A DNA stretch of 11,343 nucleotides from positions 1-11,343 of the forward strand of contig JAOUHR010000034.1 in the NCBI GenBank assembly GCA_029884515.1, read 5' to 3'. Shown here in pieces: positions 3,932 to 11,343 of this stretch. The stretch comes from Gemmatimonadota bacterium (GTDB lineage Bacteria; Gemmatimonadota; Gemmatimonadetes; Gemmatimonadales; Gemmatimonadaceae). The notes beneath the pieces are model-generated. The model saw only the letters and a list, made by a program, of their open reading frames with translations, was not told the origin of the DNA and ran no database searches. The stretch's first letter is position 1; the number at the start of each line of letters is the position of its first letter. Position numbers and translations under genes: made by a program.

Positions 3932-4327
3932 GTGGCTCGTCTGGGAATCCCAGGAGAGCGTGAGACGCGGCCGCGGGCCAACATCCCGATGACGCTGTCG
4001 GTCCGTGTGTCGGTCCGTGTCGCCGGCGGTCAGGCGCGCTCATGGAACGAGGGACTCATCGCGTCGGCGCGGGGCGACACGGCGGGCGTGCGGCGCGCGC
4101 TGAAGGCCCTGGACGGCGACCCGCGATACGCGCAGCGCGCCGGCCTCCTGTTCCTGGTCGGCGCCAGGGACAGCGCCTATGCCATGCTGGACCGCGCGGT
4201 CGCCGAGCGCGATCCCGACCTGCTGCAGGTCCTGAACGCGATGCCGGCGCTGTACCCCTTCCGGAGGGAACCGCAATTCCAGGCGTTGCTCGCGCGTATC
4301 GGCATGCCGGAGCGGCTGCGCCGATAG
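3932..4327 (+). CDS. TPR-type protein fragment (C-terminal region only)
   Basis: 131 residues from a GTG at 3932 preceded by GTAGGAG. Residues from about 34 on resemble the last repeats and end of long TPR proteins attached to bacterial serine/threonine kinases or adenylate cyclases: helical pairs (WNEGLIASARGD, GVRRALKALD, SAYAMLDRAVAERD) and the ending YPFRREPQFQALLARIGMP at 109-126, which corresponds to the common DPRFQALLRRMGLP-like tail. The first 30 residues are low-complexity, include a 12-bp tandem duplication, and look unrelated. Full-length relatives are several hundred residues, so this is either a decayed remnant or a short derivative with a new start. Its own translation is possible but unproven. 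Confidence 0.45.
   Translation: MARLGIPGERETRPRANIPMTLSVRVSVRVAGGQARSWNEGLIASARGDTAGVRRALKALDGDPRYAQRAGLLFLVGARDSAYAMLDRAVAERDPDLLQVLNAMPALYPFRREPQFQALLARIGMPERLRR
3997..4020 (+). repeat. 12-bp perfect tandem duplication
   Basis: GTCGGTCCGTGT occurs twice in direct succession (3997-4008 and 4009-4020). In the TPR-fragment frame it encodes SVRV twice, adding four residues without a frameshift. It sits in the part of that reading frame that does not resemble the TPR family, consistent with slippage in sequence under weak constraint. Confidence 0.85.
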
Positions 4328-6864: not shown

Positions 6865-8886
6865 TCAGCGATGCACGAACACGGCGTTCGCACGCGGCCC
6901 GTTCTGCGTGAAATTCCGGATCCCGATCCCCATGTCCTCGGTCGCGCAACAGGCGGCGAACAGCTCCGACTCCGTGCGCAACCCCTCGGCGAGCGGCTTC
7001 CGACAGCCCTCGAGGATCGCCCGGCACATCAGCGCATCGATCGCCCGGCTCAAGTGCCCGATGTCCAGCGGCGGCAACTCGGATGGGGTCACGAGCGGAC
7101 CAGGATCCGGTCGCGCGATCGGTGACCTGCCGCGCGCGATGTCGCGCGCGAGGGCGGCGGCCGCCGCGACGAGGTCGCCCTCCACTTCGGCGTGCACGAA
7201 TCCGCTGGCGAGCGCCTCCCGGCCCGAGAGGCCCTGACCCGTCCTGAGCATCCGTGCGGCCAACTCCACGCCGACCAGTCGTGGCAGGCGCTGCGTCGCG
7301 CCCGCGCCGGGGATGATGCCGAGCTTCGCTTCCGGCGTTCCGACGGCGAGCGACAGGCCTTTCCGCGCGATGCGCGCGGTGCAGCAGAGCGCGAGCTCGC
7401 ATCCTCCGCCGAGCGCGAATCCGTTGAGGGCGCACACCACCGGCTTTCCGAGCGACTCGATGAGGTTCCCGACGGACTTCGACTCCAGCGAGGTCGCGAG
7501 CCCCTGCTGCGGTGACGTGATCGCGGCCAGGAAGTGCACATCGGCTCCTGACACGAATGCCTTGGGCCCGAATCCGGTGAGGACGACACCCACCACCTGC
7601 GGATCGTCCCGAAGCGCGGTGAACCGTTCGTGGAGCTGCGCATACACATCGGCGTTGAGCGCGTTCAGTGCCTGCGGTCGCCGGATGGTGAGCACGGCGA
7701 TCCCCTCGACGTCTCGTCGCAGAACCCAATCGACAGGGAACGGTTCGCGACGCGCGGCCTGTTCGACCAGACAACGCGGGACACGGAACCCCGCATGAGC
7801 GGCAGCGTAGTCCCGTACCAGGCCGAGCGCGCGGTCGAGGCCCAGTGCGTTCATCGCCTGGAACGGCGGCTGAACCACAAGGCCGATCTCGACCGCCAGC
7901 TCGAGATCGGAGAGCGTGACGATGCCACTGTCGAGGATCTGCCCCGCCAGACCGAAGAACGCCCCACGCATGACGTCGCCGATGCGCTCCTCCTGGAGGG
8001 GCGGGAGTTCCACGGGATCGTCACGGCGCGCCACCTCCCACTCCCCGCCGGCCGCCATCGTCTCGCGCATCAGGCGCGGGACGCGATACCAGGTTCCCAG
8101 CTTCGTGGTCATCACGTCGAGCGCATGGGCGGTGATGGGATTCCCGCCCGTCAGGTTCATGGCCGTGAATGGCCCTACGCCCAGACCGAGCGCGCGTCGC
8201 GCCGCCGCATCCACCTCGCGCACGGTGCCGAGCCCCTCTTCCACCGCGAGTGCCGCCGCGAGGAAGAGCCCCTCGAACACCGGATTCACCGCAAAGCCGA
8301 ACCGCCCACGGACGGCGATCGGCACCTTCCCGATGCCTTCGTAGAACGCGAGCACGTCCTCCGTGAGCCGCGGATCGGTCTTCGCGGAGGGAACGATCTC
8401 CACGAGCGGGTTGCGTTCCGCGGGGAAGAAATAGTGGATCACGAGCGCGCGCGAAGGATCGCGGAGCCCGTCAAAGACGACCTCTGGCTCGATGTGTGAG
8501 GAGTTCGACGCGAGCACAGCGGTCGCGCCGCACGTGGCCTCGAGTGATGCGAAGATCGTCCGCTTGACGTCGGCGTCCTCGGTGGCCGCTTCGATCACGA
8601 GCCCCGCATCGGCGAGTCTTCCGATGTCGGTGGTGAAGACCAGCGCAGCACCGATGGCCGCGGCGTCCTGCGCCGTGAACGCCCTGGTCTCGACCCCCTT
8701 CGCGATCTTCTTCCGACACTTGGCCTCGCCACGCTCCAAGGCGTCGGGCGAGACATCCACGACCACGACCTTGGTGCCGCGGGCGTGCAGGGACTTCGCG
8801 AAGAACAGGGCGATGTCGGGGCCGATCTGTCCCGATCCGACGACCCCGACCGTGTCGAGACTCAGGCTTCTGGAGGTGCGACCCAT
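6865..8886 (-). CDS. Bifunctional 3-hydroxyacyl-CoA dehydrogenase / enoyl-CoA hydratase (dehydrogenase first)
   Basis: 673 residues. Residues about 11-200 are the NAD-binding dehydrogenase domain (VGVVGSGQIG at 13-22, acidic Asp44 for the NAD ribose). Catalytic positions of the family are present: Ser129/Ser130 in SNSSH, His151, Glu163 in LVEIV and Asn201 in GFAVN. The usual HFFNP is HYFFP, so the Asn after the catalytic His is lost. Two helical dehydrogenase C-domains follow (about 200-375). Residues about 385-673 are a crotonase fold with the oxyanion motif SGADV (446-450), ALGGGCELAL and GTPEAKLGIIPGAG; both catalytic glutamates, Glu497 and Glu519, are kept, so hydratase activity is expected. 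FadB and FadJ have the opposite order; this order is known from archaeal crotonyl-CoA hydratase/3-hydroxybutyryl-CoA dehydrogenases. GAGG precedes the ATG by 5-6 nt. It is divergent from bcrC. Role: hydration and oxidation steps of ring or ring-opened acyl-CoAs; exact substrate unknown. Confidence 0.92.
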   Translation of the reverse strand: MGRTSRSLSLDTVGVVGSGQIGPDIALFFAKSLHARGTKVVVVDVSPDALERGEAKCRKKIAKGVETRAFTAQDAAAIGAALVFTTDIGRLADAGLVIEAATEDADVKRTIFASLEATCGATAVLASNSSHIEPEVVFDGLRDPSRALVIHYFFPAERNPLVEIVPSAKTDPRLTEDVLAFYEGIGKVPIAVRGRFGFAVNPVFEGLFLAAALAVEEGLGTVREVDAAARRALGLGVGPFTAMNLTGGNPITAHALDVMTTKLGTWYRVPRLMRETMAAGGEWEVARRDDPVELPPLQEERIGDVMRGAFFGLAGQILDSGIVTLSDLELAVEIGLVVQPPFQAMNALGLDRALGLVRDYAAAHAGFRVPRCLVEQAARREPFPVDWVLRRDVEGIAVLTIRRPQALNALNADVYAQLHERFTALRDDPQVVGVVLTGFGPKAFVSGADVHFLAAITSPQQGLATSLESKSVGNLIESLGKPVVCALNGFALGGGCELALCCTARIARKGLSLAVGTPEAKLGIIPGAGATQRLPRLVGVELAARMLRTGQGLSGREALASGFVHAEVEGDLVAAAAALARDIARGRSPIARPDPGPLVTPSELPPLDIGHLSRAIDALMCRAILEGCRKPLAEGLRTESELFAACCATEDMGIGIRNFTQNGPRANAVFVHR

Positions 8887-8936
8887 CGTTTCCTCGTGCG
8901 CGTCGATCACCCTGGGGGCTGATTCGAGAGGTGGGC

Positions 8937-8965
8937 TGGACAAGGGAGGACTCGCGCCATAATAT
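8937..8965 (+). promoter_or_regulatory. Sigma70-type promoter of bcrCB
   Basis: TGGACA at 8937-8942 (one mismatch to TTGACA) and TAATAT at 8960-8965 are separated by exactly 17 nt, the best promoter match in the window. Transcription would start near 8972, leaving a leader of about 50 nt before the bcrC GTG. The AT-rich -10 region stands out against the GC-rich surroundings. Confidence 0.6.
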
Positions 8966-8991
8966 ATCGAACGTTCGTTCAGTATTTTCAA
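8961..8991 (-). promoter_or_regulatory. Weaker divergent promoter for the fusion gene
   Basis: Read on the minus strand, TTGAAA (8991-8986) and TATATT (8966-8961) are good hexamers, but the 19-nt spacer is longer than the optimum. The -10 element overlaps that of the bcrC promoter on the other strand, so RNA polymerase could not occupy both at once. Confidence 0.4.
8968..8977. promoter_or_regulatory. Palindromic operator candidate between bcrC and the fusion gene
   Basis: CGAACGTTCG is a perfect 10-bp palindrome. It covers the predicted start point of the bcrC transcript and lies between the -35 and -10 of the opposing promoter, an ideal place for one repressor to shut both. AACG/CGTT half-sites are typical of TetR-family repressors that sense acyl-CoA or aryl-CoA thioesters (PaaR- and FadR-like). 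The regulator itself is not in the window. Confidence 0.5.
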
Positions 8992-9014
8992 GGGTCGCTC
9001 CTTTTCCAGGGACC

Positions 9015-9019
9015 GGAGG
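9015..9019 (+). promoter_or_regulatory. Shine-Dalgarno site deciding the GTG start of bcrC
   Basis: GGAGG ends 4 nt before the GTG at 9024. No ATG is available in frame near it, and the resulting N-terminus aligns with the start of known BcrC proteins, so GTG is the likely start. Confidence 0.6.
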
Positions 9020-9023
9020 CCGC

Positions 9024-10190
9024 GTGGCGCGAGCGGAGATACTCGACTGGGCCCGGGAAGTCTCCCAGGACGTCGATTTCGCCTCAGCTCGCCAGTGGCT
9101 GGAGGAGGATTCCAGCCGTCTGGCGGGCGGATACCTCCCCGTGTACGCACCGCGCGAGGTACTCCACGCCTGCGGATTCCTGCCCGTCGGCATCCACGGC
9201 GCGGGCGACCAGATCGAGACGATCCGGGGCGACGCCTTCTATCAGTCGTACATCTGCCACCTGCCTCGGTCGGTCATCGAGCTCGGACAGTCGGGTCGGC
9301 TCGATTTCCTCTCGGCGATGCTGTTCCCCTCCACCTGCGACGTGATCCGGAACCTCTCGGGCATGTGGAAGATGCTCTACCCGGACACGTACGTGCGGTA
9401 CATGGACGTGCCGCAGTCCCCTGACATCGGGGCCGCCACGGAGTTCTGGGAGGGGGAGCTCCGGCGCCTGGTCGACGATCTCTCCGAGCGCTCGGGCCGG
9501 CGTCCCACTGACGAGGTGCTGCACCGGTCGATCGCACTCTATAATGAAGTGCGCGCCATGGTACGGCAGCTGTACGGGGTCCGTCGGGATCGCCCGTGGG
9601 ACGTTCCCGCCGAGGAACTGTACCTGCTCCTGAGGGCTGGAGAGGTGATCCCGGCCGAGCAGTTCCTCGCGAAGTCCCGCGCCTATCTGGCCGCGGTGGA
9701 GGCCGACCCGCGCCGCGCCCGTGACAACAGCCGCGTGATCGTGCTGGGCGCCTTCTGCGAACAGCCACCACTCGGGCTGATCAAGTCGATCGAGCGGGCC
9801 GGCTGCTACGTGGTGGACGACGATTTCCTGTTGGGCAACCGATTCCTGACGGGCGACGTCCCCGTCGACGGGGATCCGCTGCGTGCGCTCGCCGCGGCGC
9901 TCGTGAGTTCCGGCGTGCGGACCTCGGTGATGTACGAGGGAGACGCGAACGGGAAGAGGCGGTTGACGGCGGACCTGGCGGCGGCGTCGAACGCAGACGG
10001 CGTGATCTTCGCGGCGCCCAGTTTCTGCGATCCCGCGCTGCTCGACCAGCCGATGCTGCGTTCCGGCGCGGAGCGCGAGGGGTTGCCGTGCATGGCCTTC
10101 AGGTATTCCGAGAACACGGGGCAGTTCCAGCAGTATCGCGAGCAGGCCGGCACCTTTGCCGATTCGATCAAGCTGTGGGGAGGTGCGTGA
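9024..10190 (+). CDS. bcrC: Class I benzoyl-CoA reductase subunit C
   Basis: 388 residues from GTG 9024, against about 385 for BcrC of Thauera aromatica. It belongs to the 2-hydroxyacyl-CoA dehydratase D-component family (HGD-D). With BcrB it carries the ring-reducing active site, which converts benzoyl-CoA to cyclohexa-1,5-diene-1-carboxyl-CoA in the cytoplasm using reduced ferredoxin and ATP supplied through BcrA/BcrD. Segments matching BcrC as I remember it: YAPREVLHACGFLPVGI (41-57), GDAFYQSYIC (69-78), PRSVIELG (81-88), LFPSTCDVIRNLSG (100-113), VRYMDVPQ (124-131), FCEQPPLGLIKSIE (244-257), CYVVDDDFLLGNRF (261-274), APSFCDPALLDQPML (331-345) and REQAGTFADSIKLW (372-385). Cys105, Cys245 and Cys335 fall in conserved blocks and are candidate iron-sulfur ligands. 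The bcrCB order is the Thauera order. Generic 2-hydroxyacyl-CoA dehydratase activity is possible but less likely given these blocks. Confidence 0.93.
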   Translation: MARAEILDWAREVSQDVDFASARQWLEEDSSRLAGGYLPVYAPREVLHACGFLPVGIHGAGDQIETIRGDAFYQSYICHLPRSVIELGQSGRLDFLSAMLFPSTCDVIRNLSGMWKMLYPDTYVRYMDVPQSPDIGAATEFWEGELRRLVDDLSERSGRRPTDEVLHRSIALYNEVRAMVRQLYGVRRDRPWDVPAEELYLLLRAGEVIPAEQFLAKSRAYLAAVEADPRRARDNSRVIVLGAFCEQPPLGLIKSIERAGCYVVDDDFLLGNRFLTGDVPVDGDPLRALAAALVSSGVRTSVMYEGDANGKRRLTADLAAASNADGVIFAAPSFCDPALLDQPMLRSGAEREGLPCMAFRYSENTGQFQQYREQAGTFADSIKLWGGA

Positions 10191-11343
10191 TGGCCGGGCG
10201 CGTGGAGGACGCCGTGAAGGAGGTCGTGCAGGATGTGCGGAAGGAGGCGATGAAGGACCGTTCGATGGAGCTGCAGAAGGAGATGATCGCGGGCCACTTC
10301 GCTCGCCTGGAGAAGGCGCCGGAGACGAAGGAGCCCGTGGTCTACACGTTCGTGCCCGGGAACCTCACGGAGTTGATCCGGTCGTTCGGCGCGCTCCCCA
10401 TGCTCCCCGAGATCAACGCGCTGCAGTCGGGGATGCGCAAGCTCTCCGGCGATTTCATCGCCGAAGCCGAACGGGCGGGGCACTCGGAGGACGTGTGCAC
10501 CTACGTGAAGTGCGACATCGGGATGATGCGCGCGGGCAACATCGGTCCCGCGGGCACCAAGCTGCCGAAGCCGGATCTCCTGCTGCTCTCCTACACGGGC
10601 TGCTACACCTTCATGAAGTGGTTCGAGCTGCTCCGCGAGGAATACGACTGCCCCGTGGTCTTCTTGCACGTTCCGTATCAGGGGGATGGCACGCTCGAGC
10701 CTGCGCACCGCGAGTACATGCTGCGACAGCTCCGGGATCAGGTGATCCCGGCGCTGGAGAAGGCGACGGGTCGAGCGTACGACGAGGAGCGGTTGAAGCA
10801 TCACCTCGCGCTCTCGGCGCAGGCGGAGGATGATCTCGTCGCGGTGCTGCAGGCGGGCAAGCTGCACCCGAGTCCGATCGACGGGTATTTCGGCACCGTG
10901 TACTACGTGGGGCCGATCTTCAGCGCGTTCCGCGGCACCCAGGAGGGCGTCGACTATTACCGTGCGCTGCGCGCCGAGGTGGAGGCGCGTGCTGCCGCCG
11001 GGCTCGGGCCGGTGACACCTGAGGGTCCGCTCGATGACCAGCGCTACCGCCTCGTGGTCGAGGGCCCGCCGAACTGGACGAGCTTCCGCGACTTCTGGAA
11101 GATGTTCGCGGACGAGCGAGCGGTCGTGGTGGCGTCCACCTACACCAAGGTCGGCGGCACGTACGATTCCGGATTCCGGCACGATCCGTCGGATCCGCTG
11201 GGGACGATGGCGGACTACTGCAGCGGCTGCTACACCAATCTGAACCTGCCGTCGCGCGTGGACATGCTCGTGCGATACATCAGGGAGTACGAGGCCGACG
11301 GGTTCCTGATCAACTCCGTCAAGTCGTGCAACTCGTTCTCGGC
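10190..11343 (+). CDS. bcrB: Class I benzoyl-CoA reductase subunit B, 3' end beyond window
   Basis: 384 residues are visible; Thauera BcrB is about 435, so about 50 are missing. The ATG shares its A with the bcrC stop (TGATG), so the two are translationally coupled, and GGAGG lies 6 nt upstream. The match to BcrB/BadE/BzdO is strong throughout: YTFVPGNLTELI (52-63), PEINALQSGMRKLSG (73-87), GHSEDVCTYVKCDIGMM (97-113), LLLSYTGCYTFMKWFELLRE (131-150), PSPIDGYFG (227-235), YYVGPIFSAFRGT (238-250), YRLVVEGPPNWTSFRDFW (286-303), VVVASTYTKVGG (312-323), FRHDPSDPLGTMADYC (329-344), NSVKSCNSFS (375-384). Cys103, Cys108, Cys138, Cys344, Cys347 and Cys380 are conserved-block cysteines, some of which should hold a [4Fe-4S] cluster. 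With BcrC it forms the substrate-reducing half; bcrA and bcrD (ATPase/activator half) are expected next and are not in the window. Confidence 0.94.
   Translation, partial: MAGRVEDAVKEVVQDVRKEAMKDRSMELQKEMIAGHFARLEKAPETKEPVVYTFVPGNLTELIRSFGALPMLPEINALQSGMRKLSGDFIAEAERAGHSEDVCTYVKCDIGMMRAGNIGPAGTKLPKPDLLLLSYTGCYTFMKWFELLREEYDCPVVFLHVPYQGDGTLEPAHREYMLRQLRDQVIPALEKATGRAYDEERLKHHLALSAQAEDDLVAVLQAGKLHPSPIDGYFGTVYYVGPIFSAFRGTQEGVDYYRALRAEVEARAAAGLGPVTPEGPLDDQRYRLVVEGPPNWTSFRDFWKMFADERAVVVASTYTKVGGTYDSGFRHDPSDPLGTMADYCSGCYTNLNLPSRVDMLVRYIREYEADGFLINSVKSCNSFS

Follow-up and report, generated by a model that had tools for sequence, protein, structure and literature searches.

Can an uncultured bacterium of the family Gemmatimonadaceae dearomatise benzoyl-coenzyme A (CoA), a task for an oxygen-sensitive enzyme that overcomes the stability of the benzene ring, and if so, which other genes accompany the enzyme? 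The question is raised by an 11,343-nucleotide stretch (contig JAOUHR010000034.1 of assembly GCA_029884515.1, forward strand), referred to here as the window, which is the entire contig C203 of genome G000 and carries at its right end two genes resembling those of class I benzoyl-CoA reductase (BCR). The bcrC gene (9024-10190, plus strand; TIGR02263) is complete and encodes 388 aa of subunit C between a GTG start and a TGA stop, while bcrB (10190-11341, plus strand; TIGR02260) begins with ATG and encodes 384 aa of subunit B, its 3' part being lost at the contig end; the bcrB start codon and the bcrC stop codon overlap by one base at 10190. Judged by their sequences, the two genes almost certainly encode subunits C and B of a class I BCR. 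With regard to the wider locus, we lean towards the view that the window would be the left end of a large Gemmatimonadaceae catabolic cluster, in which BCR is combined with a dehydratase module that feeds it from arylpyruvate.

BcrC scored 480 bits on TIGR02263 (curated cut-off 421), and BcrB scored 575 bits on TIGR02260 (cut-off 487), covering profile positions 1-366 of 413. The rival models remained far below, with HadC at 142 bits and BzdN at 76 bits on BcrC, and HadB at 124 bits and BzdO at 68 bits on BcrB. Residues C78, C105, and C335 of BcrC are invariant among the 120 homologues listed, and this conservation together with solved-structure alignments points to them as cluster ligands; the cluster-ligand cysteines C103, C138, and C380 of BcrB are present when mapped on HadB, and BCR-type residues occupy HadB positions 37 and 56. 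The nearest solved relatives of BcrC are MbdN (9g87_B) and HadC (3o3m_B). In the BcrB tree, which the sequence-only reading of this DNA had proposed as a check, the window BcrB falls inside the BcrB clade (100/99) and apart from the dehydratases. The dehydratases are represented in the BcrC tree by one row that serves as outgroup, so BcrC was judged on model scores, which strongly favour BCR (480 vs 142 bits). The claim of that reading that the two coupled genes are bcrC-bcrB is thereby borne out by the two cut-offs, the cluster cysteines, and the one-base overlap.

The cluster order was read in ten relatives (G080, G088, G007, G040, G008, G050, G102, G118, G068, and G019), in which bcrA and bcrD directly follow bcrB; in the one relative tested, both passed their cut-offs (BcrA 580.5 vs 578, BcrD 334 vs 313). 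The whole cluster is approximately 20 kb long and consists of bcrC, bcrB, bcrA, bcrD, an hcrB-like gene, a fused hcrC-hcrA-like gene, TetR, and thiolase, followed by an Oah/BadI-like crotonase, a short-chain dehydrogenase/reductase (SDR), enoyl-CoA hydratase, PanE-D1, A1, D2, A2, a ligase, and Had. This order is the same in the ten relatives as far as the stretches reach, seven of the ten stopping before Had; the G118 stretch ends in the hydratase, and its D1 and D2 lie further along the same contig. The Had of a relative clearly passed its cut-off (426 vs 339). In the Gemmatimonadota clusters, L005 (15454-18384) included, a single fused gene encodes both the 2Fe-2S and the molybdenum subunit of the enzyme resembling 4-hydroxybenzoyl-CoA reductase; two Myxococcota loci have a separate gene for each. 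A further member, overlooked in the sequence-only reading, lies in the window itself at 6865-8886 on the minus strand (the start codon being our choice) and is divergent from bcrC. It encodes an N-terminal 3-hydroxyacyl-CoA dehydrogenase fused to a C-terminal enoyl-CoA hydratase (PF02737, PF00725, and PF00378), and a homologue occupies the same place in nine of the ten relatives, not in G007. The intergenic stretch bounded by the divergent ends of this fusion gene and bcrC (8887-9023) likely holds both promoters, as judged from its position.

Most of the remaining cluster was located on three other contigs of G000, an assembly of 2.74 Mb in 548 contigs that is 77% complete with 1.7% contamination. 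Contig C547 carries TetR, thiolase, the Oah/BadI-like gene, SDR, the hydratase, and the start of PanE; C532 carries the remainder of PanE-D1, followed by A1, D2, A2, and the start of the ligase; and C206 carries the ligase remainder (55% identity to the Eisenbacteria ligase) and then Had (413 bits, cut-off 339). A 135-bp stretch (98.5% identity) is common to the end of C547 and the start of C532; the two base differences in this contig-end overlap (L109:1-135 vs L088:2-136) suggest strain variation that breaks the assembly. No overlap was found between the ends of C532 and C206, and their adjacency was deduced because the ligase gene is split between them and because of the order in the relatives. 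The missing block, bcrA-bcrD-hcrB-hcrCA, is located in the relatives exactly between the window part and the C547 part, and its absence presumably reflects an assembly gap. Two candidates for the missing genes were rejected: C179 as bcrA or bcrD, which holds a lone BadF/BcrA-type kinase next to a transporter gene (labelled by eye), and the best Hcr match, which was taken to represent other xanthine-oxidase-family enzymes. Of NosZ, the genome yielded a 32-bit fragment at a contig end and nothing more, and no conclusion on the electron acceptor was drawn.

The module was found to accompany BCR across the order. Among 201 genomes drawn from it, D2 is present in 16, class I bcr of the window type in 15, and both in 14, so that D2 occurs in 14 of 15 genomes with this bcrC type versus two of 186 others (Fisher p 1.4e-18, a value inflated by shared ancestry). 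In these counts, G193 (142 bits) was left out for D2, G003, with its different gene order, was left out of the co-occurrence, and G074, the bcrC of which is split across two contig ends next to the fusion gene, was taken as bcr-positive. Only G131 has bcr without D2, on a bcr contig of 5.9 kb, and two genomes have D2 without class I bcr. One of them, G032, has perhaps lost bcr to a contig break, since its module contig begins inside the hcr-like gene, and the other, G085, carries the module and a BCR of the 3-methylbenzoyl-CoA reductase-like (MBR-like) type on one contig. In a wider comparison, 80 of 189 BcrC loci were kept for comparison and 42 of their genomes were searched. D2 was found in eight (three Gemmatimonadota, one Krumholzibacteriota, one Eisenbacteria, and three Myxococcota) and not in the other 34, which comprise proteobacterial genomes, L008 (Gemmatimonadota), two Myxococcota, two Planctomycetota, and one Acidobacteriota. 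The module stands next to hcr-like genes on the bcr contig in two of the three D2-bearing Myxococcota, and the module contig of the third stops short of bcr.

D1 and D2 of the module are both HGD-D proteins and are 40% identical to each other. D2 retains the three ligand cysteines of HadB together with Ser37, Glu55, and Asn56 (numbered from the alignment to HadB) in 119-120 of the 120 homologues listed, the exception being a single cysteine in one sequence. Ser37 and Glu55 of HadB have a role in catalysis. In the BcrB and MbdO types, position 37 is occupied by Pro, Ala, or Met and position 56 by Ile or Thr. D1 and D2 came out as sister branches on the HadB-type dehydratase side of the tree (100/99), separate from the BcrB and MBR (MbdO) types; the dehydratase set in this tree is small and is made up of HadB, on a long branch, and three myxococcotal proteins. 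HadB, a 2-hydroxyisocaproyl-CoA dehydratase subunit, is also the nearest solved relative of the module dehydratase subunit. These features suggest that D2 probably has dehydratase chemistry, and the public record of D2 in G080 is named '(R)-phenyllactyl-CoA dehydratase alpha subunit', a name only and presumably automatic.

In ten of ten genomes, D1 carries a fused ketopantoate-reductase-like domain (the window genome copy on C532 being without its start), and the PanE-D1 fusion recurs in the 120 homologues listed, the query itself being the fusion. Its predicted structure has a mean predicted local distance difference test score of 83 and a predicted template modelling score of 0.60, with a loose linker between two folded parts. 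Among solved structures, it is best matched by HadB (3o3m, template modelling score 0.92-0.93 by target), by ketopantoate reductases, and by D-mandelate dehydrogenase. The two activase genes, A1 and A2, are unlike each other: both proteins keep the two activase cysteines in 12 of 12 genomes, and the GGQD motif is kept in A2 (12 of 12) and changed in A1 (0 of 12), a split resembling that in one aligned relative, where BcrA keeps GGQD and BcrD does not. Dehydratases are described with one cluster per D subunit and a homodimeric activase in the accessible part of PMC11574389. With the cluster lost from D1 and two activase genes present, the module is therefore not filed as an ordinary 2-hydroxyacyl-CoA dehydratase despite its dehydratase-like active site.

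G000 belongs to the same family as G080 and G088, and the proposal of the sequence-only reading that a class I BCR resides here in a non-classical host is confirmed, the host being a member of Gemmatimonadaceae and not a known benzoate-degrading proteobacterium. Among the loci kept, those closest to the window BcrC are from Gemmatimonadaceae and other Gemmatimonadota at 69-72% identity (L005 and L006 being titled Gemmatimonadaceae), followed by Krumholzibacteriota at 68%, Eisenbacteria at 66%, and the remainder at 57% or less; the nine organism-named BcrC homologues among the 120 listed are all Gemmatimonad-type. A BcrC tree was built from 48 of the 96 extracted sequences together with two solved-structure sequences, and its root lies on a very long branch. 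The 15 rows with the cluster type of the window fall into a single clade (96/90) that joins Krumholzibacteriota and Eisenbacteria (100/100), apart from the proteobacterial and myxococcotal rows. This placement argues against a recent proteobacterial origin and not against transfers within the group. The suggestion of a transferred cluster is accordingly not supported in the sense of a recent proteobacterial event, as far as these sequences indicate, and an older or within-group transfer is possible. The BcrC cut-off was passed in 15 of the 201 genomes, whereas none of the 11 further members of the window's genus included in the draw had a bcrC match; the trait is therefore patchy.

Other types of BCR were also met in the order. 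The BcrC of G003 (424 bits) sits on a long branch of the tree as partner of a Planctomycetota row (98/82), and at least two kinds of bcrC are therefore present in the order. Its locus (L130:6717-15332) is a third bcr cluster type in which Had, Oah-like, and hydratase genes precede bcrCBAD, an order presumably closer to the Thauera type; the dehydratase module was not found within the 19 kb fetched. A second type, MBR-like, was recognised among the 22 of the 201 genomes that scored 229-281 bits on the BcrC model, below cut-off; none of the 22 also has the class I type in the same search. Five of them were fetched (G011, G023, G085, G107, and G187) and are MBR-like by gene make-up and tree, the tree assignment covering the BcrB-like protein of all five and the BcrC-like protein of four, without G085. 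The MBR-like loci L147, L148, L149, L150, and L176 carry a short BcrA-type ATPase.

Hcr converts 4-hydroxybenzoyl-CoA to benzoyl-CoA, and Had together with an Oah-type hydrolase opens the ring after the diene formed by BCR. In the proposed pathway, an arylpyruvate such as 4-hydroxyphenylpyruvate would be reduced to the aryllactate and activated to its CoA ester by the ligase; the aryllactyl-CoA would be dehydrated to a cinnamoyl-type CoA, which beta-oxidation would convert to 4-hydroxybenzoyl-CoA. After dehydroxylation by Hcr, the ring would be dearomatised by BCR, with BcrAD driving two low-potential electrons into BcrCB to give the cyclic diene. Ring opening would then fall to Had and the Oah-like hydrolase, and beta-oxidation would be carried onward by the fusion protein and thiolase. 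In the module, D2 would be the catalytic subunit of a 2-hydroxyacyl-CoA dehydratase, A1 and A2 a BcrA/BcrD-like activase pair, and D1 a clusterless partner bearing the dehydrogenase that makes the dehydratase substrate. The net conversion would be arylpyruvate to (4-hydroxy)benzoyl-CoA and acetyl-CoA with no carbon lost. D-mandelate dehydrogenase, a PanE-type enzyme, is broad in specificity and has been applied to aromatic acids (PMC12350541, accessible part); this breadth and the position of the PanE domain on a dehydratase subunit suggest the sequence 2-oxoacid, 2-hydroxyacid, 2-enoyl-CoA. Arylpyruvate from tyrosine or phenylalanine is favoured because it is the sole substrate found that gives every cluster gene a role. 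Whether the module acts on an aryl substrate, for which arylpyruvate is the best candidate, is in our judgement finely balanced. Tentatively, and with somewhat less confidence, the cluster may represent an undescribed carbon-saving anaerobic route from aromatic amino acids to class I BCR through an asymmetric four-protein dehydratase of BCR design, hosted by Gemmatimonadota, Eisenbacteria, Krumholzibacteriota, and Myxococcota.

Several observations weigh against this interpretation. The ligand cysteines are lost from D1 (Cys1 in 0 of 120, Cys2 in 0 of 120, and Cys3 in 9 of 120 homologues listed), although dehydratase beta subunits have them, and the module may therefore not be a working dehydratase; a separate, unlinked cluster-bearing beta subunit is possible. 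Neither bcrA nor bcrD was found in the incomplete assembly of the window genome, so that the ATPase subunits looked to by the sequence-only reading are known from the relatives and not from the genome itself, and both genes appear broken or miscalled in G118. Similarly, hcr was not found in the window genome, where the best match reached 414 bits versus 929 for the L005 protein. For the HcrA-like proteins of L005 and of two Myxococcota, 4-hydroxybenzoyl-CoA reductase is the best family, but all three stay below its cut-off of 995 (929, 854, and 775, respectively), and the HcrB-like protein scores higher on XdhB (197 bits) than on HcrB (138 bits). The same reading had pointed to a dienoyl-CoA hydratase; a hydratase is present in the cluster of the relatives but resembles that enzyme weakly (140 bits vs a cut-off of 292.5), and the Oah-like protein is under both the Oah and BadI cut-offs. 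The ligase type varies among lineages, and no aminotransferase is present among the labelled cluster genes, although no search was aimed at one. The absence of bcrC from the 11 other genomes of the genus that were drawn counts on the same side, and all parts of the cluster are known here from genes alone.

Against the arylpyruvate route, the cluster might serve benzoate or 4-hydroxybenzoate alone, with the module as a second ring-directed reductase acting, for example, on the diene or on hydroxybenzoyl-CoA. The four-gene D-A-D-A make-up resembles bcrCBAD, hcr-like genes are nearby, and module and BCR genes share a contig in Gemmatimonadota relatives, Eisenbacteria, two Myxococcota, G085, and, for D2 and A2 only, Krumholzibacteriota (the contigs of G032, G074, and G225 being too short to judge). 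However, D2 has the dehydratase residues Ser37 and Asn56 rather than those of the BcrB and MbdO types, groups in the tree with HadB, and stands beside a PanE-type 2-oxoacid reductase without an evident role in ring reduction, and such a second reductase is regarded as distinctly improbable. It is also rather unlikely, if still to be reckoned with, that the module dehydrates a non-aromatic 2-hydroxyacyl-CoA of the branched-chain or 2-hydroxyglutarate type and shares merely regulation and low-potential electrons with BCR. The 2-hydroxyisocaproyl enzyme HadB as nearest solved relative and the broad specificity of the PanE-like D-mandelate dehydrogenase (PMC12350541, accessible part) would fit such a substrate, whereas the company of BCR and hcr-like genes in several phyla does not, nor does the PRK12582/FadD3-like ligase, the top solved match of which is, weakly, feruloyl-CoA synthetase (111.7 bits), followed by oxalate-CoA ligase (110).

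The remaining alternatives concern the window itself. Both of its proteins fall in the Pfam family HGD-D, which they have in common with 2-hydroxyacyl-CoA dehydratase subunits, but a dehydratase identity is hardly tenable and was rejected on the BCR cut-offs with HadB and HadC far lower, on the residues, and on the BcrB tree, in addition to which BcrA and BcrD occur in the relatives. Misbinning of the contig, or its recent acquisition from a benzoate-degrading proteobacterium, would agree with the fragmented genome and with the lack of bcrC in the 11 congeners. A comparison of same-genus genomes for an empty site also yielded no site, the TonB gene being the sole flanking gene matched, in three same-genus stretches. 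Nevertheless, the BcrC belongs to the Gemmatimonadota clade of this cluster type, the TonB gene has relatives in three of 16 other same-genus genomes (57, 56, and 44% identity), and three more contigs of the same assembly carry the remaining cluster, which together make this explanation very improbable.

Several known systems resemble parts of the locus. The Thauera BcrCBAD enzyme (TIGR02263, TIGR02260, TIGR02259, and TIGR02261) is matched over the cut-offs for C and B in the window and for A and D in a relative, in the bcrCBAD order, but the present cluster occurs in another phylum, includes hcr-like genes and a dehydratase-like module, and has divergent relatives in place of Oah and Dch. The bcr genes of Krumholzibacteriota have been reported (PMC10936416), and their BcrC lies in the same clade as that of the window; the dehydratase module is not described in the accessible part of that paper. 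In the Krumholzibacteriota genome of L009, bcrCB share a contig with D2 and A2, and a second contig carries PanE-D1, A1, and Had; this genome differs in having a true Oah (581 bits) and a ligase gene of the ATP-grasp/CoA-binding (ADP-forming) type adjoining A2. HadBC with its activase (3o3m) resembles the module in the three cysteines, Ser37, Glu55, and Asn56 of D2, in the tree, and in the fold of D1; in contrast, the partner D1 here is without cluster ligands and carries a PanE-type fusion, and two unlike activase genes are present instead of one. MbdONPQ (3-methylbenzoyl-CoA reductase type, 9g87) contains the nearest solved relatives of the window BcrC and BcrB, yet both lie outside the MbdN/MbdO clade, and the MBR-like type is found in other genomes of the order.

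FldABC is the phenyllactyl-CoA dehydratase of Clostridium sporogenes and performs the chemistry proposed here, from aryllactyl-CoA to cinnamoyl-CoA; the present cluster differs by a ligase instead of a CoA-transferase and by a product that would go to benzoyl-CoA, not to phenylpropionate. FldABC is named in PMC13416013, a recent paper the accessible part of which puts forward the same reaction sequence for the breakdown of benzene without oxygen, leaving the dehydratase unassigned and discussing candidate genes. In a literature search that left subscription journals mostly outside, no paper joining 2-dehydropantoate 2-reductase with benzoyl-CoA reductase was found, 4-hydroxyphenyllactate was not met among the 15 best-ranked of 33 matches, and Ser37 together with 2-hydroxyisocaproyl-CoA dehydratase gave no match. 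The suggestion that this lineage had not been credited with the trait holds for the accessible parts of PMC10936416 and PMC13101482, in which BCR in Gemmatimonadota is not reported; the former states that no bcr or bam genes occur in its 37 FCB representatives, one Gemmatimonadota genome among them. An earlier report elsewhere is possible, and the suggestion does not hold for public records, where, among the matches listed, most organism-named BcrC homologues of Gemmatimonadota are already annotated 'benzoyl-CoA reductase subunit C'.

BCR itself is thus a known kind of enzyme in a further host, and the novelty is the cluster with a PanE-fused, cluster-free dehydratase subunit. The finding places ATP-driven dearomatisation in the phylum Gemmatimonadota, for which PMC13101482 (accessible part) reports occurrences in samples from soil, freshwater, the sea, and sediment, and surveys that count bcr genes should therefore not default to Proteobacteria. 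If the proposed pathway is true, the skeletons of aromatic amino acids would reach the benzoyl-CoA pathway by dehydration and beta-oxidation, not through arylacetate, and a 2-hydroxyacyl-CoA dehydratase could function with a single iron-sulfur subunit.

Of the neighbours named in the sequence-only reading, the bacterial serpin (2-730, truncated at the contig start; PF00079, 189 bits), the lipocalin (Lipocalin_5), and the TonB plug gene were recovered, whereas the 'tetratricopeptide repeat fragment' at 3932-4324 matched no Pfam family and the CarboxypepD_reg stretch of the TonB plug gene stayed below its cut-off (27.9 vs 32.3).

Further genes adjoin the cluster in the relatives. A hemerythrin-domain gene (PF01814), the product of which is possibly an oxygen binder, stands next to Had at the cluster end in L116 (10313-10873), L124 (10671-11231), and L176 (2115-2672), and genes with a similar start occur in L177 and L186; the gene is convergent with Had in L116, L124, and L186 and on the same strand in L176 and L177. 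Near bcrC in L005 (3312-6719), an indolepyruvate ferredoxin oxidoreductase alpha-like part (597 bits, cut-off 651) is fused to a GltD-like NAD(P)-binding part, and its product is possibly a source of reductant or a competing arylpyruvate route. In addition, a gene resembling the large subunit of [NiFe] hydrogenase, the best models for which are below cut-off, lies immediately past the fusion gene in the G040 cluster (L120:662-9100), together with apparent hydrogenase and maturation genes.

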